From Gammaproteobacteria bacterium (GTDB taxonomy: Bacteria; Pseudomonadota; Gammaproteobacteria; Steroidobacterales; GCA-2729495), in contig VGVH01000001.1 in assembly GCA_016874095.1 (NCBI GenBank), forward strand, positions 62,001-126,000: 64,000 nucleotides of DNA, given 5' to 3'. This document shows, piece by piece, positions 1-20,769 of the stretch. Under the pieces are notes generated by a model. The model was not told the DNA's origin. It did not search any database and saw only the letters and a list, made by a program, of their open reading frames with translations. The translations under genes were made by a program, and so were the position numbers. The first letter of the stretch is position 1. Every line of letters starts with the position of its first letter.

Positions 1-1068
1 TTCGACGAGACCCTGGAATACGCGGCGATCCGCAACGCCTGCGCGGTGTTCGACCTGACGCCGATGACCAAGCACCGCATCACCGGCCCGGACGCGCTCG
101 CGTTCCTCAACCGCCTGGTCACGCGCGACGTCGCGAAGATCAAGCCCGGCCGCGTCGGCTACTGCGTCTGGTGCGACGACAACGGCCAGGTCATCGACGA
201 CGGCACGATCTTCCACCTGCGGCCGGGCGACTACCGGCTCTGCTCGCAGGAGCGGCAGCTCGACTGGCTGGCCCGCTCGGCCCGTGGCTTCGACGTGTCG
301 ATCGTCGAGGACACGCACGACGTCGCCGCGCTGGCCTTCCAGGGGCCGACCACCTGCGCCGTGCTGAAGAAGATGGGCCTCGCCGGAGTCGAGAAGCTCA
401 CGCCCTTCGGCATCGGGTTCTTCCCGTTTGCCGGCGGCGAGCTGATGGTCTCGCGCACCGGCTTCACGGGCGACTTGGGCTACGAGCTCTGGATCGAGCC
501 CGGCCGTGCGCTCGCCCTGTGGGATGCGCTGTTCGCGGCCGGCGCCGACCACGGCATCCGGCCGATGGGCACGCACGCGCTGGAGGTCTCGCGCATCGAG
601 GCAGGCTTCGTTCAGGCCGGGGTGGACTTCCTGCCGGCGGACGCGGCGGTGCGCATCGACCGCACGCGCTCGCCGTTCGAGCTCGACCTCGGTCGGCTAG
701 TGGACTTCACGAAGCCCGTCTTCACCGGCCGCCGCGCGCTGCTCGAGGAGCAGCGCCGCGGCTCGCGCTACCGCCTGGTCAAGCTCGACGTCGAGGGCAA
801 CAAGCTCGCGCGCTCTTCATATATATACGACCGCGCGAGGAACGTCGTCGGCACCGTCACCTCGGCGGTGTGGTCACCGGCCGCCAAGACCAACATCGCG
901 CTGGCTTCCCTGAAGATGCCCTGGGGCAGGCCGGGCGACGAGCTCTGGGCCGAGATCTACTACCAGCGCGAGCTGCAGTGGGCGAAGGTCATGGCGCGTT
1001 GCCGCGTCATCGAGGGCGCCTTCTTCGATCCGCCGAGGCGCCGCGCGACGCCCCCCGCGGATTTCTGA
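1..1068 (+). CDS. GcvT-like folate-dependent aminomethyltransferase/demethylase, 5' partial
   Basis: The frame is open from base 1, so the N-terminus lies outside the window; 355 residues are visible. The protein resembles glycine-cleavage T-protein and the related DmdA/sarcosine-type demethylases. An early stretch (AVFDLTPMTKHRITGPDA) matches the family's start of the folate-binding domain, RTGFTGDLGYELW is the typical central motif, and the C-terminal barrel carries a GTVTSAVWSP-like segment. Family members transfer a methyl or methylene group from an amine or sulfonium compound to tetrahydrofolate in the cytoplasm. It heads a tightly packed operon with an acyl-CoA synthetase, aldehyde dehydrogenase, crotonase and glutamine-synthetase-like ligase, so demethylation of a catabolic substrate is more likely here than glycine cleavage. 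Substrate is unknown. Confidence 0.85.
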   Translation, partial: FDETLEYAAIRNACAVFDLTPMTKHRITGPDALAFLNRLVTRDVAKIKPGRVGYCVWCDDNGQVIDDGTIFHLRPGDYRLCSQERQLDWLARSARGFDVSIVEDTHDVAALAFQGPTTCAVLKKMGLAGVEKLTPFGIGFFPFAGGELMVSRTGFTGDLGYELWIEPGRALALWDALFAAGADHGIRPMGTHALEVSRIEAGFVQAGVDFLPADAAVRIDRTRSPFELDLGRLVDFTKPVFTGRRALLEEQRRGSRYRLVKLDVEGNKLARSSYIYDRARNVVGTVTSAVWSPAAKTNIALASLKMPWGRPGDELWAEIYYQRELQWAKVMARCRVIEGAFFDPPRRRATPPADF

Positions 1069-1094: not shown

Positions 1095-3239
1095 ATGGCC
1101 CACCGTCTCGATCCACTGCTGCGGCCTGCCTCCATCGCCGTTATCGGCGCGACGGAGCGTGCGGGCTCGGTCGGGCGGCTCGCGCTCCGCAACCTGCAGC
1201 TGGGCGGCTTCGCCGGCCCGCTCTATGCGGTGAACCCCGGTTACACGAGCGTGCTCGGCACGCCGTGCTTCCCCTCGCTGGCGGCGCTGCCCTCCCCCGT
1301 CGAGCACGTCGTGTTCGCGGTCGCTGACCACCGGCTCGAAGCAGTGCTCGACGACGTGATCGCGCACGGCGCCCGCGCCGCGACGATCATGTCCTCGCTC
1401 GTTCTCGAGGACGACGTGGTGCCCGCGCTGCGCGAGCGCGTCGCGGAGAAGATCCGCCGCGCGGGGCTCATCGTGTGCGGCGCGAACGGCATGGGGTTCT
1501 ACAATTTCCGCGACGGCACCTGGGCCTGCGGCTTCGAGACCCGCGCACACCGGCGCGACGGCAACGTCGCCTACATCAGCCACTCGGGCTCCGGCATGTG
1601 CGGGATTGTCGACACCGATGAGCGCCTGCGTTTCAACCTGGTCGTCTCGACCGGCCAGGAACTAGCGGTGTCAATGGACGAGTACCTCGACTTCGCGCTC
1701 GATATGGACAGCACCCGCGTCGTCGGCCTGTTCATGGAGACCGCGCGCAACCCGCACGGCCTCGTCCGCGCTCTGGCGAAGGCCGAACAGCGGCGCATCC
1801 CCGTCGTCGCACTCAAGGTCGGACGCACGGAGCTCTCGGCGCGGCTCGCCGTGTCGCACTCCGGCGCGGTCGCCGGACGCGACGCGAGCTACCAGGCACT
1901 CTTCGACCGCTACGGCGTGCAGCGCGTGGAGGACATGGACCAGCTCGCGACCACGCTCGCGATGTTCGCCCAGCCCCACCGGGTGGGCGCCGGCGGCCTC
2001 GTGTCGATCCACGACTCGGGCGGTGAGCGGCAGTTGCTGATCGACCTCGCCGAGACCGCCCGCGTGCCGCTGGCAACGCTGGCGCCGGCGTCCGTCGCGC
2101 GGCTGGAGTCGCTGCTCGATCCGGGACTGCCCGCGGTGAACCCGCTCGACGCCTGGAGCAAGGGCGGGCCCGACTACCACGTGACGATGCAGGAGTGCTT
2201 CGCCACGCTGATGGCGGATCCCGCCGCCGCGTTCGGCGCGGTCGTGCACGATCGCGCGCCCGGCGGGGGCATCCATGCCACCTACCTCGACTACCTTCGC
2301 CACGGCCATGCCGCCACCGGCAAGCCGGCGTTCCTCGTCGCGAACCGGCAGGGCACCGGGGCTGATCCCGCGGTCGTCGCCGCAACCCACGAGGGCTTCC
2401 CGGTGCTCGACGGCCTCGCGTCCTTTCTGCGCGGTGCGCGCTGCCTGCTCGACTTCCGCGACCACCAGCTTCGGCATGGACGTCGCCGGCCCGGCCAGGC
2501 GGCGCGGGCCGCCGCGATGATCCCGGGCGAAGCCGCAGCTGCCGCGCGCGCGCGCCTCGCCGGCGGCGCCGTGCTGGACGAAGCCGAGTCGAGCCGTCTC
2601 CTGCGCGACTGCGGGATTCCCGCGAACGATTGTCGGACCGCGCAGACCGCGGCCGAGGCGGTCGCCGCGGCGCGCTCGCTCGGTTACCCGGTGGTACTGA
2701 AGACCGCGGAGCGCGGCATCCACCACAAGTCGGACCGCGGCGGCGTGCGCCTCGCGCTGGCCGACGACGCCGCCGTCGCCGCCGCCTGGAACGAGCTCGC
2801 CGCGCAACTCGGCCCGCGGGTGCTGGTTGCGCCGATGGTGCGCGCGACGGGCCTCGAACTGATGCTCGGGCTCGTCCGCGACGAGCAGTTCGGGCCGGTC
2901 GTCGTGCTGGGCTTCGGCGGCCTGCACGTCGAGGCGCTGGGCGACGTCGTCTGTGCGCTGCCGCCATTCGATGCAGCGGAGGCGCGCCGCCTCCTCGGGC
3001 GGCTGCGGCAGGCGCCGCTGCTCGCAAGCCGACGCTTCCGGTCGCCGCTGGCGATCGATGCCTTCTGCGAGGCCGCGGCGCGCTTCTCGGGCCTTGCCGT
3101 CGCGCTCGGCGACGCGGTGGCGGAGATCGACCTGAACCCGGTGATCGTCCACCCCGGCGGCTGCATCGCCGTGGACGCGCTCATCGTCGGCCGGCGCAAC
3201 GCGCCCGGTGAAACACCTGAAATGAGGCAAGCCGTATGA
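1095..3239 (+). CDS. Acyl-CoA synthetase, NDP-forming (acetate-CoA ligase family)
   Basis: Predicted 714 aa. The N-terminal CoA-binding Rossmann domain starts at the protein start (LRPASIAVIGATERAGSVG), followed by succinyl-CoA-synthetase-like domains with VAYISHSGSGM and the phosphohistidine region LAVSHSGAVAG, and a C-terminal ATP-grasp domain (YPVVLKTAERGIHHKSD, then a GFGG loop). This order is that of single-chain ADP-forming acyl-CoA synthetases, which make acyl-CoA from acid, CoA and NTP. ATG 1095 is chosen because the CoA-binding domain begins immediately after it; the frame is open much further upstream, but that part is antisense-like noise over the GcvT-like gene. It starts 26 bases after that gene and its stop overlaps the aldehyde dehydrogenase start. 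It probably activates the acid made by that dehydrogenase. Confidence 0.9.
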   Translation: MAHRLDPLLRPASIAVIGATERAGSVGRLALRNLQLGGFAGPLYAVNPGYTSVLGTPCFPSLAALPSPVEHVVFAVADHRLEAVLDDVIAHGARAATIMSSLVLEDDVVPALRERVAEKIRRAGLIVCGANGMGFYNFRDGTWACGFETRAHRRDGNVAYISHSGSGMCGIVDTDERLRFNLVVSTGQELAVSMDEYLDFALDMDSTRVVGLFMETARNPHGLVRALAKAEQRRIPVVALKVGRTELSARLAVSHSGAVAGRDASYQALFDRYGVQRVEDMDQLATTLAMFAQPHRVGAGGLVSIHDSGGERQLLIDLAETARVPLATLAPASVARLESLLDPGLPAVNPLDAWSKGGPDYHVTMQECFATLMADPAAAFGAVVHDRAPGGGIHATYLDYLRHGHAATGKPAFLVANRQGTGADPAVVAATHEGFPVLDGLASFLRGARCLLDFRDHQLRHGRRRPGQAARAAAMIPGEAAAAARARLAGGAVLDEAESSRLLRDCGIPANDCRTAQTAAEAVAAARSLGYPVVLKTAERGIHHKSDRGGVRLALADDAAVAAAWNELAAQLGPRVLVAPMVRATGLELMLGLVRDEQFGPVVVLGFGGLHVEALGDVVCALPPFDAAEARRLLGRLRQAPLLASRRFRSPLAIDAFCEAAARFSGLAVALGDAVAEIDLNPVIVHPGGCIAVDALIVGRRNAPGETPEMRQAV

Positions 3240-4765
3240 CCCTCGCGACTGCGCAAGGCCACGACCGGGACCACTGGCAGGCGCTGGCAGTGGCCGCGCG
3301 CGCCCGGCTCGAGAGCCGGCTCTTCATCGACGGCCGATTCGTCGACGCCGCGCGCGGCGGGCGGTTCCAGTCGATAAACCCGGCGACGGGCGCGCCGCTC
3401 GCCGAGGTGTCGGCCGGCACGGCCGAGGACATCGATCTCGCAGTCGCGGCCGCGCGCCGCGCGTTCCGCTCCGGCGCCTGGTCGAAGCTGCCCCCGCGCC
3501 GGCGGATGGATATCCTCTACCGCTTCGCGGCGCTCGTCGACGAGCACGCGGAGCAGCTCGCCGTGCTCGAAACGCTCGACATGGGCAAGCCGATCGCGGA
3601 CGTGGTCGCCGGCGACCTGCCCGCGGTGATCGAGACGATCCGCTTCATGGCGGAGTGCATCGACAAGATCGAGGGTGCCGTCACCAATACCGAGTCCGGC
3701 GTCGTGCACATGATCCTGCGCGAGCCTCTCGGCGTCGTCGGCGCCATCTCGCCGTGGAACTACCCGCTGCTCATGGCGGTATGGAAGATCGCGCCCGCGC
3801 TCGCGGCCGGCAACACCGTCGTGCTGAAGCCCGCGGAGCAGGCGCCGCTGAGCTGCCTCAGGCTCGCCGAGCTCTTCATGGAGGCCGGCGGGCCGGCGGG
3901 CGGGTTCAACGTCGTCAACGGCCTCGGCGAAGTCGCCGGCAAGGCGCTCGCGCTGCACAACGACGTCGCCAAGGTGAGCTTCACCGGCTCCACCGAGGTC
4001 GGCAAGCTCATCCTGCAGTACGCGGGGCAGTCGAACATGAAGCGCGTCGCGCTCGAGTGCGGCGGCAAGTCCCCGCAGGTGTTCATGGGCGACCTGCCCG
4101 ACCTCGGCGCAGCGGTGACGGCCGCATACCGCGGCATCTTTTCCAACATGGGCGAGGTGTGCAACGCGGGCTCGCGCATCCTGGTCGAGCGCGGCATCTA
4201 CGGGGAGTTCATCGAGCGCTTCGTCGCGGAGGGCGAGCACGCCTACGTACCCGGCGACCCGCTCGACCCGGCGACGACGATGGGTCCGCTCGTGACGCGC
4301 GAGGCCCAGCAGCGCGTGCTCGGCCTCATCGAGACCGGCCGGAAGGAAGGCGCGAAGCTGCGCTTCGGCGGCGGTGTGCCCCGAAACGCGGGCGCCGGCT
4401 CCTTCGTGAGCCCCACGCTCTTCACGGACGTGCGCAGCGACATGACGATCGCCCGCCAGGAGATCTTCGGCCCGGTGGCGGCCGTCATGCCGTTCGCGGG
4501 CGTCGATGAGGCGATCCGGATTGCCAACGACACCATCTACGGGCTTGCGGCCGGCGTCTGGACGCGCGACGTGAATACCGCGTTCCGCCTGGTGCGCGAG
4601 ATCGAAGCCGGCGTGGTGTGGATCAACTGCTTCGACGAGGGCGACATGACCCAGCCCTTCGGCGGCTGGAAGCAGTCCGGCAATGCGCGCGACAAGTGCT
4701 TCGAGAGCGTCGTCAGCTACACGCAGACGAAGTCAGCGTGGCTGCGACTGGCGGCGCAGCCGTGA
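3236..4765 (+). CDS. Aldehyde dehydrogenase, NAD(P)-dependent
   Basis: Predicted 509 aa, normal length for the superfamily. Visible motifs are the substrate-side SPWNYPLLM, the cofactor loop SFTGSTEVGK, the general-base motif LECGGKSPQ and the catalytic cysteine in GEVCNAGSR. The nearest functional groups by eye are betaine-aldehyde and gamma-glutamyl-aminoaldehyde dehydrogenases, which fits the glutamine-synthetase-like gene two places downstream. ATG overlaps the stop of the acyl-CoA synthetase as ATGA, so translation is probably coupled. It would oxidise an aldehyde released by oxygenase or amine catabolism to the acid. Exact aldehyde not determinable. Confidence 0.93.
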   Translation: MTLATAQGHDRDHWQALAVAARARLESRLFIDGRFVDAARGGRFQSINPATGAPLAEVSAGTAEDIDLAVAAARRAFRSGAWSKLPPRRRMDILYRFAALVDEHAEQLAVLETLDMGKPIADVVAGDLPAVIETIRFMAECIDKIEGAVTNTESGVVHMILREPLGVVGAISPWNYPLLMAVWKIAPALAAGNTVVLKPAEQAPLSCLRLAELFMEAGGPAGGFNVVNGLGEVAGKALALHNDVAKVSFTGSTEVGKLILQYAGQSNMKRVALECGGKSPQVFMGDLPDLGAAVTAAYRGIFSNMGEVCNAGSRILVERGIYGEFIERFVAEGEHAYVPGDPLDPATTMGPLVTREAQQRVLGLIETGRKEGAKLRFGGGVPRNAGAGSFVSPTLFTDVRSDMTIARQEIFGPVAAVMPFAGVDEAIRIANDTIYGLAAGVWTRDVNTAFRLVREIEAGVVWINCFDEGDMTQPFGGWKQSGNARDKCFESVVSYTQTKSAWLRLAAQP

Positions 4766-5610
4766 CGGGCGCCGGCCACGGGGGCGGCCGCGTCGGCTAC
4801 GAGCGCCGCGGCGAGCTCGCGTTCGTCACCCTCGACCGACCGGACAAGCTGAACGCGATCGACGCGGCGATGGTCCGCGGCCTCCACGAGGCGCTGGACC
4901 GCGCGGAGGGCGACGACGCCGTGCGGGCCATCGTGCTGACCGGTGCCGGCAAGGCATTCTCGGCGGGGTTCGACCTCGCGGCCGGCGACACCAAGCCGAC
5001 CGACGACGAGGTCCGCCGCACGCTCACCGCGGACTTCGACATCATCATGCGCTTCTGGGACTGCCCGAAGCCGACCGTGGCGGCGGTGCACCGCTACTGC
5101 CTCGGCAGCGCGCTCGAGCTCGCCGTCGCCTGCGACGTGACGATCGCAGCCGACGATTGCCTGTTCGGCGAGCCCGAGGTCCAGTTCGGCAGCGGCATCG
5201 TGGCGCTGCTGCTGCCCTGGTTCATCGGGCCGAAGCTCGCCAAGGAGCTGCTGCTCACCGGCGACGACCGGATCCCGGCGGCACGGGCCCTGGAGATCGG
5301 GCTCGTCAATCGCGTGGTCCCGGCCGCTTCCCTCGCCGACGAGGCCGTCGCGATGGCGCGGCGCATCGCCGGCAACGATCCGTTCGCCGTGCGCCTCACC
5401 AAGCTCGCCATCAATCGCAGCATGGACATCGCGGGCATGCGCAGCGCGCTCGCGCAGGCCCTGGAGATCGACGTCACGATCGAGACGACCGAGACGCCCG
5501 AGTCCCGGGAGTTCAACGCGATCCTGGCGCGCGACGGCGCGAAGGCCGCGATCGCATGGCGCCGCGCACGATCGGGCTCGACGGGCCCGGCAACAGGGAG
5601 CGACCGATGA
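4762..5610 (+). CDS. Enoyl-CoA hydratase/isomerase (crotonase) family protein
   Basis: Predicted 282 aa from GTG 4762, which overlaps the aldehyde dehydrogenase stop as GTGA; an ATG further upstream would run inside that gene and is rejected. The crotonase signature is clear: VTLDRPDKLNAID near the start, the oxyanion-hole segment GAGKAFSAGFDL, then RYCLGSALELAVACD and the GEPEVQFG motif. Crotonases act on acyl-CoA thioesters (hydration, isomerisation, hydrolysis, C-C cleavage); which reaction applies here cannot be read from sequence. Position in the operon suggests it processes the acyl-CoA made by the upstream synthetase. Confidence 0.92.
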   Translation: MTGAGHGGGRVGYERRGELAFVTLDRPDKLNAIDAAMVRGLHEALDRAEGDDAVRAIVLTGAGKAFSAGFDLAAGDTKPTDDEVRRTLTADFDIIMRFWDCPKPTVAAVHRYCLGSALELAVACDVTIAADDCLFGEPEVQFGSGIVALLLPWFIGPKLAKELLLTGDDRIPAARALEIGLVNRVVPAASLADEAVAMARRIAGNDPFAVRLTKLAINRSMDIAGMRSALAQALEIDVTIETTETPESREFNAILARDGAKAAIAWRRARSGSTGPATGSDR

Positions 5611-6998
5611 GCAAGCCACGCGACGGCGGAGCGGACGAGCTGCAGCTCTACCTGGACGAGCACCCGGAAACGGAAATCCTCGAGGTCCTGCAGCCGGACA
5701 TGACCGGCATCCTGCGTGGCAAGCGCCTCGTGCGCGACGACTTCGCCAAGCCGTTCAAGGGCGGCATCAGCTTCTGCGGCGCCTCCACCCTCCTCGACAG
5801 CAAGGGCCAGACCTTCGCCGGCATCGACGAGGGCGGCCGCGATGGCGATCCGGACATGCTGGCGCTCGCCGTGCCAGGCTCGCTCGCACCCGTGCCCTGG
5901 GCACCGGTGCCGACGGCGCAGGTCATGCTCACGATGCAGACGTCCGGCGGCGAGCCGTTCTTCGCCGACCCGCGCCAGGTGCTGCTGCGCGCGGCGGCAC
6001 CGCTCGCGGCGCTCGGGCTGCAGCCCGTCGTCGCGACCGAGCTCGAGTTCTATCTGCTGGAGCCGCCGGGCGACGAGCCCCGCGCCGCGCCGCGCCCGCG
6101 GGTGGGCCGCATCCCGGGCACCGACCGCGCGCAGGACGGCCCGCAGTTCGCGAGCATGGTGGACATGGCCGAGGTCGATGCCTTCCTCGCCGACCTCTAC
6201 ACGACGTGCCGGGCGCAGCGGATACCGGCATCCGGCACGCTCAAGGAGTTCTCACCCGGCCAGTTCGAGGTGAACCTGCAGCACGTGCCCGACGTCGCGC
6301 AGGCCTGCGACCACGCCGTGCTGCTCAAGCGCGCGGTGCGGGCCGTGGCCCGGCACCACGGCCTCGACGCAGCCTTCATGGCGAAGCCCTTCGCCGAATT
6401 CGCGGGCTGCAGCCTGCACGTGCACGTCAGCCTGCTCGACCGCGAGGGGCGCAATGTCTTCGCGGGCAGCAGCAGCGACGGCCCGTTCTCGGACACGCTG
6501 CGCCACGCGGTCGGCGGCCTCGCGGCGACGATGGGCGAGGCCATGGCGATCTTCGCGCCGAACGCCAACTCCTATCGGCGCTTCCGGCCCGGCCTGTTCG
6601 TGCCGCTGGCGCCGAACTGGGGCATCAACCATCGCGGCGTCGCGCTGCGCGTGCCGATGTCGGGGGCCGCGGACACCCGGATCGAGCACCGGCCGGGCGG
6701 CGCCGACGGCAATCCCTACCTGGTGATGGCCGCCCTCCTCGCAGGTCTGCACCACGGCATCGAGAATCGCTGCGAGCCAGGCCCGATGGTGCGGCAGGGC
6801 GAGGTCATCCGGGAGCAGGTCACGCTGCCGTTGCGCTGGGAGGCCGCGCTCGACGCCTTCGCCGCGAGCACCGTGCTGCCGAGGTACCTCGGCGAGCGCT
6901 ACCACCGCATCTACGCCGCGTGCCGCCGCGAAGAGTGCGACCGCGTGCACGCCGAGATCCCGGACCGCGACTACGAGTGGTACCTGCGCGGCGGCTAG
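5607..6998 (+). CDS. Glutamine synthetase family ligase (GlnT/PuuA type)
   Basis: Predicted 463 aa. Catalytic-domain motifs include ELEFYLLE, EFSPGQFEVN (metal-binding glutamates), the ATP/glutamate-site stretch AGCSLHVHVSL, IEHRPGGADGNPY and the C-terminal GNPYLVMAA helix. The adenylylation loop typical of GlnA-I is not evident, and the family resemblance is to gamma-glutamylamide synthetases (PuuA-like, glutamylating an amine) rather than ammonium assimilation. ATG overlaps the crotonase stop (ATGA). It is the last gene of the operon and converges on the regulator-oxygenase fusion, with 30 bases between stops. A role in activating an amine substrate or trapping released amine is plausible but inferred. 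Confidence 0.9.
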   Translation: MSKPRDGGADELQLYLDEHPETEILEVLQPDMTGILRGKRLVRDDFAKPFKGGISFCGASTLLDSKGQTFAGIDEGGRDGDPDMLALAVPGSLAPVPWAPVPTAQVMLTMQTSGGEPFFADPRQVLLRAAAPLAALGLQPVVATELEFYLLEPPGDEPRAAPRPRVGRIPGTDRAQDGPQFASMVDMAEVDAFLADLYTTCRAQRIPASGTLKEFSPGQFEVNLQHVPDVAQACDHAVLLKRAVRAVARHHGLDAAFMAKPFAEFAGCSLHVHVSLLDREGRNVFAGSSSDGPFSDTLRHAVGGLAATMGEAMAIFAPNANSYRRFRPGLFVPLAPNWGINHRGVALRVPMSGAADTRIEHRPGGADGNPYLVMAALLAGLHHGIENRCEPGPMVRQGEVIREQVTLPLRWEAALDAFAASTVLPRYLGERYHRIYAACRREECDRVHAEIPDRDYEWYLRGG

Positions 6999-7028: not shown

Positions 7029-8879
7029 TCAGCGCATCAGCGAGCGATTGCGCGCCGCGACGGAACCCAGCGCCGGCGCGGTCGGGAGGCGCGACACCGG
7101 GATGCGCGCGCGGATCCAGTCCTGGAACGCCGCCAGCACGACTTCCTTGTCGGAGAGGATGCCGCGAGCGTAGGCGCTGGAGGCGAGGCCCTTCTGCACG
7201 GAGCGTGTCAGCACGTTGTCCTCGTCCTGCACCCTCGTGTTGATGCGCACGCTGAGGAAGCGCGTCGCGCGCATGACGCGGCTGTCGTCGGCAAAACCGT
7301 AGCTGCGCGCCCGCAGCCGCACCTTGCCGGGCCCCTCCGGCAGCACCTGGAAGTAGTCGAGCCACTCGGGGTAGACATCGAAGTAGACGTTGGGGAAAAG
7401 GCCGAAGTAGCTCCAGCGCCGGCGCAGTCCGGGCGGAAGGTGTTCGATGGTCGGCAGTAGCGCGGCGTACCGCTCGGAGCTCCAGCAGCGCAGCGGCTTC
7501 TCGCGCATCCGGTGGCTCAGGCGCATGACGCCGGTGGGGGCAGCGTCGCGGTCGTAGTCGGGCTCCATCAGGGCCGACAGGCCGCGATGGCCCATCGGGA
7601 AGTGGTAGTCCTCGACATAGTTCTCGACGACGTTCTTCCAGTCGATGTCGTGGACCTGGTCCCAGCCATCGTCGAGCGGCACCATGTCTGCGATGCGGTA
7701 GTGCGCGAGTTCCTCGTGGTAGGGCGCGAAGCGTTCGGCGACGCCCGGGCCACCGGGGCGAAAACGCACGAAGACGAACCCCATGTACTCCTCGAACTCG
7801 ATCGGCTTCAGGCCGAAGCCGGAACGGTCGAACTTCGCGAAGGTCTCGGGAGAGCTTACGCTGCGGTTGCGGCCATCGAGGTGGTATGTCCAGCCGTGGT
7901 AGGGGCAGGTCAGGACCTTCGAGCAGTTGCCGTTCCGGCCCTCCACCAGCGCGTGCGCGCGGTGGGCGCAGACGTTGTGGAACGCGCGGATGTGGCCGGC
8001 CTCGTCGCGCACGACAAAGCCGCGCTCGCCGAAGAACTCGAACGCGACGAAGTCACCGGTGCGCCGCAGCTCGCTCACGTGGCAGGCGACCTGCCACGCC
8101 GGCAGGAGCACGTGCTCCTTCTCCAGCGCGTGGAACTCCGCGTTGTCGTACAGCCACGAGGGCAGCGTGTAACGCAGGCCCGGCTGGTCGGCGGATTCCG
8201 GCTGCGCCACGGCCACGGGCTCCGCCGGCGGGGCATCCGCGAGGATGCGGCTGGCGAGCCAGGGGAACACGCTGGCGAGGAAGGCGGTGCACTGGCGCTT
8301 GCCGGCCTCGCGGTCGAAGTCGTCGCCGACGAACAGGATGCTCTGCCAGAGCTGGTCGATGACGCCGGCGAGGCCGAGCGCGATCACCCCGGGATCCGGC
8401 ACCGGCCCGCCGTCGCCGGGGCGGGCGGCGACGAGCTGGCCACAGAGCCGCGACAACTGCTCGCCGAAGGCGCTGTCGCGATCGCCGCAGATGCGCTGGT
8501 AGTCCGCGCGGGCGCCCGACTCGGCAAGAAACGCGTACCAGACGGCGATCTTGCGCTCGTCGCTGAGCTGCGGGCTCAGGCTCACCTCGATGATCGACTG
8601 CAGACCCCGCAGCGGATCATCGCCGGCCTTTGCCAGCGCCGCCTCCACGCACTCGGCGAACTCCTCCGACACCTCGCGCAAGGTGGCGAGCAGCAGGGCT
8701 TCCTTGCTGCCGAAGTGGAAGTTGATGGAGGCGGCCGTGTGCCCGGCCATGCCGGCGATCTTGGCCGAGGTCAGCGCGGACAGCCCGTGGCGCGAGACTG
8801 CCGACAGCGTCGCGTTGATGAGGTCCAGCTTCGAGCCCGTGGGCCGCGGGCTCGTCTCGAGGCCCATGACTGCTGACAT
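7029..8879 (-). CDS. BetI/TetR-type regulator fused to Rieske oxygenase alpha subunit
   Basis: One uninterrupted frame, 616 aa from ATG 8879, chosen for its upstream GGAG 7 bases away; ATG 8867 is an alternative. Residues ~15-215 are a TetR-type repressor: HTH with ALTSAKIAGMAGHTAASINF and HFGSKEALL, then a BetI-like ligand domain. A Pro/Ala-rich linker (~218-236) leads to a ring-hydroxylating-type oxygenase: Rieske cluster CAH at 304-306 and CPYH at 325-328, mononuclear iron site VENYVEDYHFPMGH (bridging Glu ~423, His 426 and 431) and late acidic ligand motif VQDEDNV. The oxygenase resembles choline/carnitine/glycine-betaine monooxygenases. No reductase gene is adjacent. Such fusion of sensor-repressor and enzyme is highly unusual; a sequencing artefact would have to delete the stop and start exactly in frame. 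Confidence 0.9.
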   Translation of the reverse strand: MSAVMGLETSPRPTGSKLDLINATLSAVSRHGLSALTSAKIAGMAGHTAASINFHFGSKEALLLATLREVSEEFAECVEAALAKAGDDPLRGLQSIIEVSLSPQLSDERKIAVWYAFLAESGARADYQRICGDRDSAFGEQLSRLCGQLVAARPGDGGPVPDPGVIALGLAGVIDQLWQSILFVGDDFDREAGKRQCTAFLASVFPWLASRILADAPPAEPVAVAQPESADQPGLRYTLPSWLYDNAEFHALEKEHVLLPAWQVACHVSELRRTGDFVAFEFFGERGFVVRDEAGHIRAFHNVCAHRAHALVEGRNGNCSKVLTCPYHGWTYHLDGRNRSVSSPETFAKFDRSGFGLKPIEFEEYMGFVFVRFRPGGPGVAERFAPYHEELAHYRIADMVPLDDGWDQVHDIDWKNVVENYVEDYHFPMGHRGLSALMEPDYDRDAAPTGVMRLSHRMREKPLRCWSSERYAALLPTIEHLPPGLRRRWSYFGLFPNVYFDVYPEWLDYFQVLPEGPGKVRLRARSYGFADDSRVMRATRFLSVRINTRVQDEDNVLTRSVQKGLASSAYARGILSDKEVVLAAFQDWIRARIPVSRLPTAPALGSVAARNRSLMR

Positions 8880-8952
8880 GTCGAATCTCCACCGCCGGCC
8901 AGGACGGCCCATTGTAGGCGCCGGCCGGTCGAGGACTCAACGGTCGTTTAGT

Positions 8953-8973
8953 TACTTGAATGTACGTTAAGTA
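8953..8973. promoter_or_regulatory. Imperfect inverted repeat upstream of the TetR-Rieske gene
   Basis: An AT-rich island (about 8940-9002) in GC-rich surroundings holds an imperfect palindrome with outer half-sites TACTT and AAGTA and inner TGAA/TTAA, 74 bases upstream of the fusion gene. TetR/BetI proteins bind such symmetric AT-rich sites and usually autoregulate. No convincing -35/-10 pair is assigned. Operator role is inferred from position and symmetry only. Confidence 0.35.
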
Positions 8974-9065
8974 TCGTAAGCCATTGTTATAAAACAGCTA
9001 TTCAGGAGACCCGGCACACTGACGGGCCCGGTGCCGGGCGAGCGCAATGGCCTGTCGAAGATCGG

Positions 9066-20706: not shown

Positions 20707-20769
20707 TTGTCAGTATCTATACACTTAAATAATTATTAAAAACAAATAATTATATATTGACACCAACGA

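Follow-up and report, generated by a model that had tools for sequence, protein, structure and literature searches.

A TetR-type repressor fused to a Rieske oxygenase: intact, inactive, and truncated forms in bacterial genomes

What a repressor and a catabolic oxygenase do when they are encoded as a single chain is the question raised by one gene in a 64,000-nucleotide stretch of gammaproteobacterial DNA (the window). The original prediction read this gene as one 616-codon TetR-Rieske frame. This is borne out by a continuous frame of 616 codons plus stop without an internal stop (start ATG at 8879, minus strand), by four of four Pfam domains above their cut-offs (TetR_N, TetR_C_6, Rieske, and Ring_hydroxyl_A, in that order; Table 1), and by an even third-position GC content (GC3). 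The latter stays at 0.87-0.97 over the entire frame, linker included, and thus gives no sign of a frame change. An alternative in-frame ATG lies upstream at 8912, a position that falls on the predicted -10 box (8911-8916), and Met1 of the 616-residue chain is invariant in the four sequences aligned. The linker had been described as Pro/Ala-rich. By eye, this is a trait of the GC-rich members of the fusion, but it does not extend to the L093 orthologue (45% GC), whose linker is similar in length and different in sequence. The L093 linker contains no in-frame ATG, GTG, or TTG, which argues for a single chain.

An AlphaFold2 model of the window protein, built from an alignment of rows from groups A and B (see below), has a mean pLDDT of 86 and a pTM of 0.63, with a loose linker. 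The top solved structures matched by this model in Foldseek are CntA and stachydrine demethylase. The BetI models score below cut-off on the fusion (TIGR03384, 78.2 versus 201.3 bits; PRK00767.1, 74.2 versus 118), as does the NCBIfam GbcA model NF058607 (120.9 versus 670 bits). Because these scores are far under the cut-offs, the two halves are relatives, not members, of the BetI and GbcA groups. No description of a TetR-Rieske fusion was recognized among the titles and abstract openings listed from the open PMC literature; one listed paper, on M. bovis (PMC12740009), contains both PF00440 and PF00355.

Table 1. Positions of the fusion gene, its domains, its control region, and nearby genes. 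Positions are those of the window, except where the neighbouring locus L050 is named.
Feature	Position	Strand	Basis or remark
TetR/BetI-type repressor and Rieske oxygenase fusion gene, 616 aa	7029..8879	-	Frame, Pfam, orthologues
TetR_N helix-turn-helix, residues 20-65	8685..8822	-	Pfam PF00440, E 6.5e-08, 32.7 bits, cut-off 24
TetR_C_6 BetI-type C-terminal domain, residues 91-205	8265..8609	-	Pfam, E 1.3e-11
Linker, about residues 208-237	8169..8258	-	pLDDT <50 at 219-231
Rieske [2Fe-2S] domain, residues 262-349	7833..8096	-	C304, H306, C325, H328; fusion-typical H309
Catalytic domain (Ring_hydroxyl_A), residues 411-593	7101..7649	-	Bridging E423; iron ligands H426, H431, D554
Proximal operator-like palindrome YTNAAYNNNNRTTNAR	8936..8951		Sequence scan; overlaps -35 hexamer
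Distal operator-like palindrome YTNAAYNNNNRTTNAR	8956..8971		Sequence scan; 20 bp from proximal copy
Predicted sigma-70-like promoter TTGAGT-18-TACAAT	8911..8940	-	1 found; shuffles mean 0.0, sd 0.2
GcvT-like (aminomethyltransferase-type) protein, convergent operon	46..1068	+	Profile matches; near several fusions
ADP-forming acyl-CoA synthetase-like protein	1095..3239	+	Similarity, neighbourhood comparison
Aldehyde dehydrogenase, PuuC/BADH-like	3236..4765	+	Below cut-offs of PuuC/BADH models
Enoyl-CoA hydratase-like protein	4762..5610	+	Similarity
Glutamine synthetase-like protein	5607..6998	+	Convergent with fusion, 30 bp apart
GbcA-like oxygenase, ECYHC motif	L050:7360-8586	-	294.9 bits, cut-off 670; just upstream of window
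Unfused TetR, 35% identical to fused TetR	L050:10457-11215	-	Same genome, just upstream of window

Carriers and conservation of the intact form

The TetR-Rieske fusion is a true, conserved architecture within enzyme-derived regulators. Full-length fusions of the intact type (group A) occur in 11 assemblies including that of the window, the ten others at 41-69% identity. These ten answer the doubt, voiced with the original prediction, that related genomes might hold no homologous fusion. Among the matches listed, the full-length fusion is present in four of 296 genomes sampled from the order, the window's own included. Eight of 77 contig loci examined carry it, three of them from genomes already in the order sample, and a class sample of 369 genomes yielded three carriers besides the window's genome, one being the genome of L092. 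In the phylum sample (398 genomes), no fusion outside Gammaproteobacteria was listed at E 1e-42; with this limit and three candidates scored per genome, fusions resembling group B could have been missed. No place in 72,556 plasmid records covers 80% of the fusion query, and the L093 fusion sits on a 1.17-Mb contig, in a stretch of 45% GC. Among the matches listed, none of the nine other genomes searched from the window's genus carries the fusion, so its presence in this genus may be explained by transfer.

The [2Fe-2S] (CxH...CxxH) and mononuclear iron (ExxHxxxxH) sites, predicted to be intact, are so: C304, H306, C325, H328, E423, H426, and H431 are all present. Together with D554, they are kept in 10/10 group A rows, which comprise the window protein and nine others; the more distant L173 protein, handled apart, also has intact cluster and iron ligands. 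In free relatives, the four cluster ligands, both iron histidines, and D554 are found in 53/53, and position 423 is Glu in 33 and Asp in 20. NG86 dN/dS values for three group A pairs (TetR part/rest) are 0.12/0.11, 0.06/0.18, and 0.25/0.24, the second pair being L091/L092, where the oxygenase part is the faster. Both halves of the group A fusion are under purifying selection. Four genomes, the window's own (G000), G113, G290, and G507, have no match of this oxygenase subgroup at E 1e-60 other than the fusion. Thus, if this subgroup performs the step in these four genomes, the fusion must do so. Three further genomes (G169, G634, and G414) each have the fusion and one free oxygenase gene of the subgroup, and at L091, L092, and L172 a free oxygenase gene lies downstream of the fusion on the same strand.

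Fused domains without the first iron histidine

Most of the weight of the finding comes from a second set of proteins, absent from the original prediction, in which a TetR is fused to a divergent oxygenase domain. This group B is found in at least 23 genomes of one family (f11), which also includes three group A genomes; the total is a lower bound, with four candidates scored per genome. BLAST flagged 21 of the 23 rows as fusions, and two (L076 and L077) were added from alignments. L067 runs to a contig edge and was excluded from alignments A2 and A3. The first iron histidine is missing in 23/23 rows, so no group B member is an active Rieske oxygenase. The second appears in one row (L072) in the first alignment and in none in the second, D554 is retained in 7/23, and the canonical H306 in 6/23. 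The remaining cluster ligands are kept, with C304 and C325 in 22/23 each and H328 in 23/23. A C-x4-H...C-x2-H set is preserved at the former cluster site in 22/23 rows, the exception being L077, which lost the CxH loop by deletion.

The inactive domains have not decayed freely. For five group B pairs, NG86 dN/dS is 0.08-0.31 in the TetR part and 0.27-0.38 in the oxygenase part, and the TetR half is the slower-evolving in 5/5; constraint on the oxygenase part is relaxed, not free. In L065, the one group B protein modelled, the oxygenase fold is retained (pLDDT 88, CntA as top match, with group A sequences in the alignment). A free oxygenase of the subgroup is encoded in 22/23 group B genomes at E 1.1e-160 or better (exception G090). 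Its ligands are intact in 19/22, which are those in the alignment; the other three (G294, G230, and G254) lie outside it. Group B fusions stand tail to tail with the free oxygenase gene and, on their other side, are divergent from permease-like genes.

Shorter forms also exist. Two repressors, L079 and L080, end in a short match to the beginning of the oxygenase (best E 1e-07 and 0.001), and their TetR parts fall inside group B. The L083 repressor has no oxygenase remnant. L174 is probably likewise without most of the oxygenase; its C-terminal piece resembles a Rieske stump by eye, and the BLAST match gives no support (best E 0.12). A free oxygenase is present in 3/3 genomes whose group B-type repressor is without most or all of the domain. 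Candidate second fusions in L050 (895 aa), L051 (585 aa), and L081 (774 aa) were rejected, as the TetR match is absent; by eye, their extra length is a run-on ahead of the normal oxygenase start.

The descent of the two halves was examined in trees. Free oxygenases were filtered by a minimum of 250 aligned residues and the removal of identical pieces, which left 84; the oxygenase trees used the best 50 of these, and a later tree 53. In the TetR tree, from which three distant rows were dropped and to which four were added, all fused TetRs form one group with L082, L174, L079, L080, and L083 (support 100/99), several rows of which are on long branches. In the oxygenase tree, groups A and B form one clade each, with B outside A and the free enzymes; a topology joining A with B is also acceptable (AU p 0.42), and the long branches make the position of B in this tree unsure. 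H309 is present in 10/10 group A rows, 22/23 group B rows, and 1/53 free oxygenases. This sharing points to a common ancestor for the oxygenase domains of the two groups and marks H309 as a possible replacement ligand. The fusion at L173:6400-8460 (plus strand; 41% identity) lacks H309. Its oxygenase half pairs with a free L175 enzyme, and its TetR falls within the fused group. Given these conflicting placements, L173 may be a separate, independent fusion or have a replaced domain.

Control region and neighbouring genes

Upstream of the fusion gene, a palindrome occurs twice, and its proximal copy overlaps the -35 box of a predicted promoter (Table 1). The region proposed for DNA binding by the original prediction, 8940-9002, contains most of these operator-like sites. 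The motif was spotted by eye in the upstream regions of the group A-type genes and then tested on those same regions, where at least one exact YTNAAYNNNNRTTNAR copy lies within 200 bp before 10/11 genes (exception L172), and the 15 sites in total compare with a shuffle mean of 0.054 and a shuffle maximum of 1. Five loci (the window, L086, L089, L091, and L092) have two exact copies at a spacing of 20 bp. A predicted -35/-10 pair overlaps the palindrome in the window and in eight of the nine other group A loci scanned (L172 is the exception, and L173 was outside the scan). A palindrome over the -35 box would be the pattern expected of a self-repressor, and the sites are best called predicted, operator-like elements.

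Elsewhere in the genome, single sites mean little, since the 2.8-Mb sequence holds five palindromic places for the pattern, two of them before the fusion, and three for a reversed-pattern control. The other exact palindromes are at C41:2437, at C4:103789, and at 20725 in the window. The first two lie, by eye, directly before genes without evident relation to the fusion, and may have some role there. No further exact palindrome was seen before neighbouring catabolic genes in the window and the group A-type loci (5 to 20 kb each), nor in L050, the locus of the same genome with the upstream operon genes. The proposal that the fusion controls its own operon is therefore supported for its own promoter, but not for the neighbouring catabolic genes. 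For group B, no shared dyad rose above shuffles (the best occurs in eight regions; five shuffles gave 6-9). A GAGTCTGCCCGAG string recurs upstream of the group B fusions L064, L065, and L074, which belong to one genus.

The fusion gene is convergent with an operon running from the GcvT-like to the glutamine synthetase-like gene, and lies outside it. Conservation of the neighbourhood, which the original prediction proposed to check, holds for most group A fusions: all or some of the operon genes adjoin the fusion in L086-L089, L091, L092, and L172. They are not beside the L090 fusion, whose contig stops directly after it. They are absent as this set from L093, and none was found in L173 by tblastn. 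By similarity and by eye, the upstream genes in the window's genome include a class-III aminotransferase, two FAD enzymes, the GbcA-like oxygenase, and the unfused TetR. Many group B loci encode relatives of these or of the operon proteins (aminotransferase, FAD pair, GcvT, aldehyde dehydrogenase, synthetase), together with PotF/PotG-like transport genes. Some also have BKACE, a thioesterase similar to the end of carnitine dehydrogenase, or a BetA-like or weakly TmpB-like gene; matches at group B loci are mostly under equivalog cut-offs. Judged from these neighbours, we infer that the cluster may break down an N-methylated or quaternary amine, which is a guess as to the compound.

Two further kinds of protein recur near these genes. 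A TPR-like protein, by eye possibly a sulfotransferase, is encoded beside the GbcA-like oxygenase (L050:5275-7344, minus strand) and beside the L093 fusion (L093:10818-12824, plus strand). A small HD-domain protein, weakly TmpB/PhnZ-like (family F9), is found at L069:4709-5311 and L089:10887-11465, both on the plus strand.

The original prediction noted that no reductase gene is adjacent; none was seen beside the fusion, and a search of all of G000, which is rated 100% complete and carries several Rieske oxygenases, found neither PF00175 nor PF00970, the FNR-type reductase domains. PF00175 was also not found in G169 and G280; it is present in eight of the ten genomes searched. G000 must therefore use a different kind of electron donor, or one too divergent to match these models.

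Proposed function and relation to known systems

A bifunctional role of the TetR-Rieske fusion is likely from the sequence evidence. Our preferred reading, to which we give a probability of about 0.58, is that the window protein would be a self-repressing Rieske oxygenase released by an amine of its pathway. As the sites and their conservation suggest, the TetR half would hold the gene down by binding the tandem pair of palindromes over its own promoter. A pathway substrate, probably an N-methylated or quaternary amine, would release it, and the Rieske half would then oxidize the releasing compound or a derivative, so that the chain would lower the signal that released it. Such an intact form would be a compact self-regulating oxygenase module. 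In group B, the fused inactive oxygenase would most likely serve the repressor in sensing or assembly; with the ligands lost and a separate oxygenase gene present, the chemistry would fall to the separate enzyme. TetR proteins act as dimers. CntA is reported to be an alpha-3 trimer (PMC7948474). By analogy, an assembly of six or more chains is expected for the group A form, and it could hold both operators at once.

The fusion might instead only couple the amounts of two proteins with separate jobs, with sensing left to the BetI-type domain of the TetR half and the oxygenase standing outside regulation. We regard this as improbable. The TetR half does have its own TetR_C_6 domain and is the slower-evolving half in every group B pair, and L079, L080, and L083, and probably L174 by eye, keep the repressor without most or all of the oxygenase. 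However, inactive copies should then decay freely, yet dN/dS in group B is near 0.3, the C-x4-H...C-x2-H set is kept in all but one row, and the fold persists in the one protein modelled. A little less probable still is that the group A oxygenase domain mainly senses ligand or redox state for the repressor, its turnover incidental and catalysis left to other oxygenases. The fixation of eight metal-site residues in all ten group A rows and the purifying selection on that half argue against such a role, and group B represents the outcome when catalysis is not needed. In its favour, the same sister group demonstrates that the domain can persist without catalysis, the window's genome lacks a PF00175 or PF00970 domain, and it encodes other Rieske oxygenases, including the GbcA-like one just upstream. 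An error of sequencing or assembly that joined two neighbouring genes, for which the unfused TetR and oxygenase in overlapping neighbouring frames at L082 could speak, is ruled out by the homologous fusions, with the same joint in 11 assemblies (L093 on its 1.17-Mb contig among them) and, in the window, no shift in GC3 at the joint.

The self-repressing oxygenase could also be one product of a longer history, a reading that is tentative and on balance doubtful. An ancient TetR-Rieske fusion would have given rise to two switches, the self-repressing oxygenase and an oxygenase turned into a metal- or cluster-based sensor through a site remodelled around H309. In group B, this histidine, three residues further on than the canonical ligand, may take over cluster binding, and the repressor would read oxygen, redox state, or substrate through the remodelled Rieske site. 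If true, transcription would here be switched by an iron-sulphur protein of a new kind, and its catalytic form would still be extant.

Several known systems share parts of this arrangement. PutA combines, in a single polypeptide, proline dehydrogenase with ribbon-helix-helix repression of its own genes. It is thus a catabolic enzyme and self-repressor like the proposed fusion, with unrelated folds. In M. tuberculosis, the TetR-like repressor Rv3160c is reported to bind a palindrome in the promoter of the same operon, which encodes the putative oxygenase Rv3161c (PMC7810876); those are two separate proteins, whereas here there is one chain. The nearest relatives of the oxygenase half in sequence and structure searches are CntA, GbcA, and stachydrine demethylase. 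CntA is a free oxygenase in which, according to published work, the glutamate before the first iron histidine forms a bridge between subunits and is required for activity (PMC7948474), and the fusion has this residue as E423. Unlike CntA and some Group V members, for which a Cys-X-X-Cys pair beside the iron site is described (PMC10952381), the fusion has D424 and F427 at these positions in 10/10 group A rows.

The combination of a DNA-binding domain and an enzyme-fold domain in one chain, as seen by Pfam and structural models, is of the kind represented by MocR and BzdR. EnuR, of the MocR/GabR family, is described as controlling compatible-solute import and catabolism through operators that overlap a sigma-70 promoter (PMC8739950), and the operator-like sites of the fusion likewise overlap a promoter. 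As characterized there, MocR/GabR proteins join a GntR-type domain to a PLP aminotransferase fold, whereas the present proteins join TetR to a Rieske oxygenase, and one TetR-Rieske branch keeps all catalytic ligands. BzdR is reported to consist of an HTH-XRE domain and a shikimate kinase-like domain joined by a linker; its authors proposed loss of catalysis as a step to a better regulator and rebuilt an active ancestor as a laboratory chimera (PMC3602430). Relative to that account, the helix-turn-helix class and the enzyme differ, and intact, inactive, and truncated TetR-Rieske fusions coexist in genomes. An enzyme-to-sensor origin is usually deduced; here the intact, inactive (at least 23 genomes), and stump stages are found, and the steps from repressor-oxygenase to sensor are open to direct test. 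Together, the three forms look like steps, preserved in nature, in the conversion of an enzyme to a sensor. The set parallels the route from enzyme to regulator that has been proposed for BzdR and MocR, in a new TetR-Rieske form.
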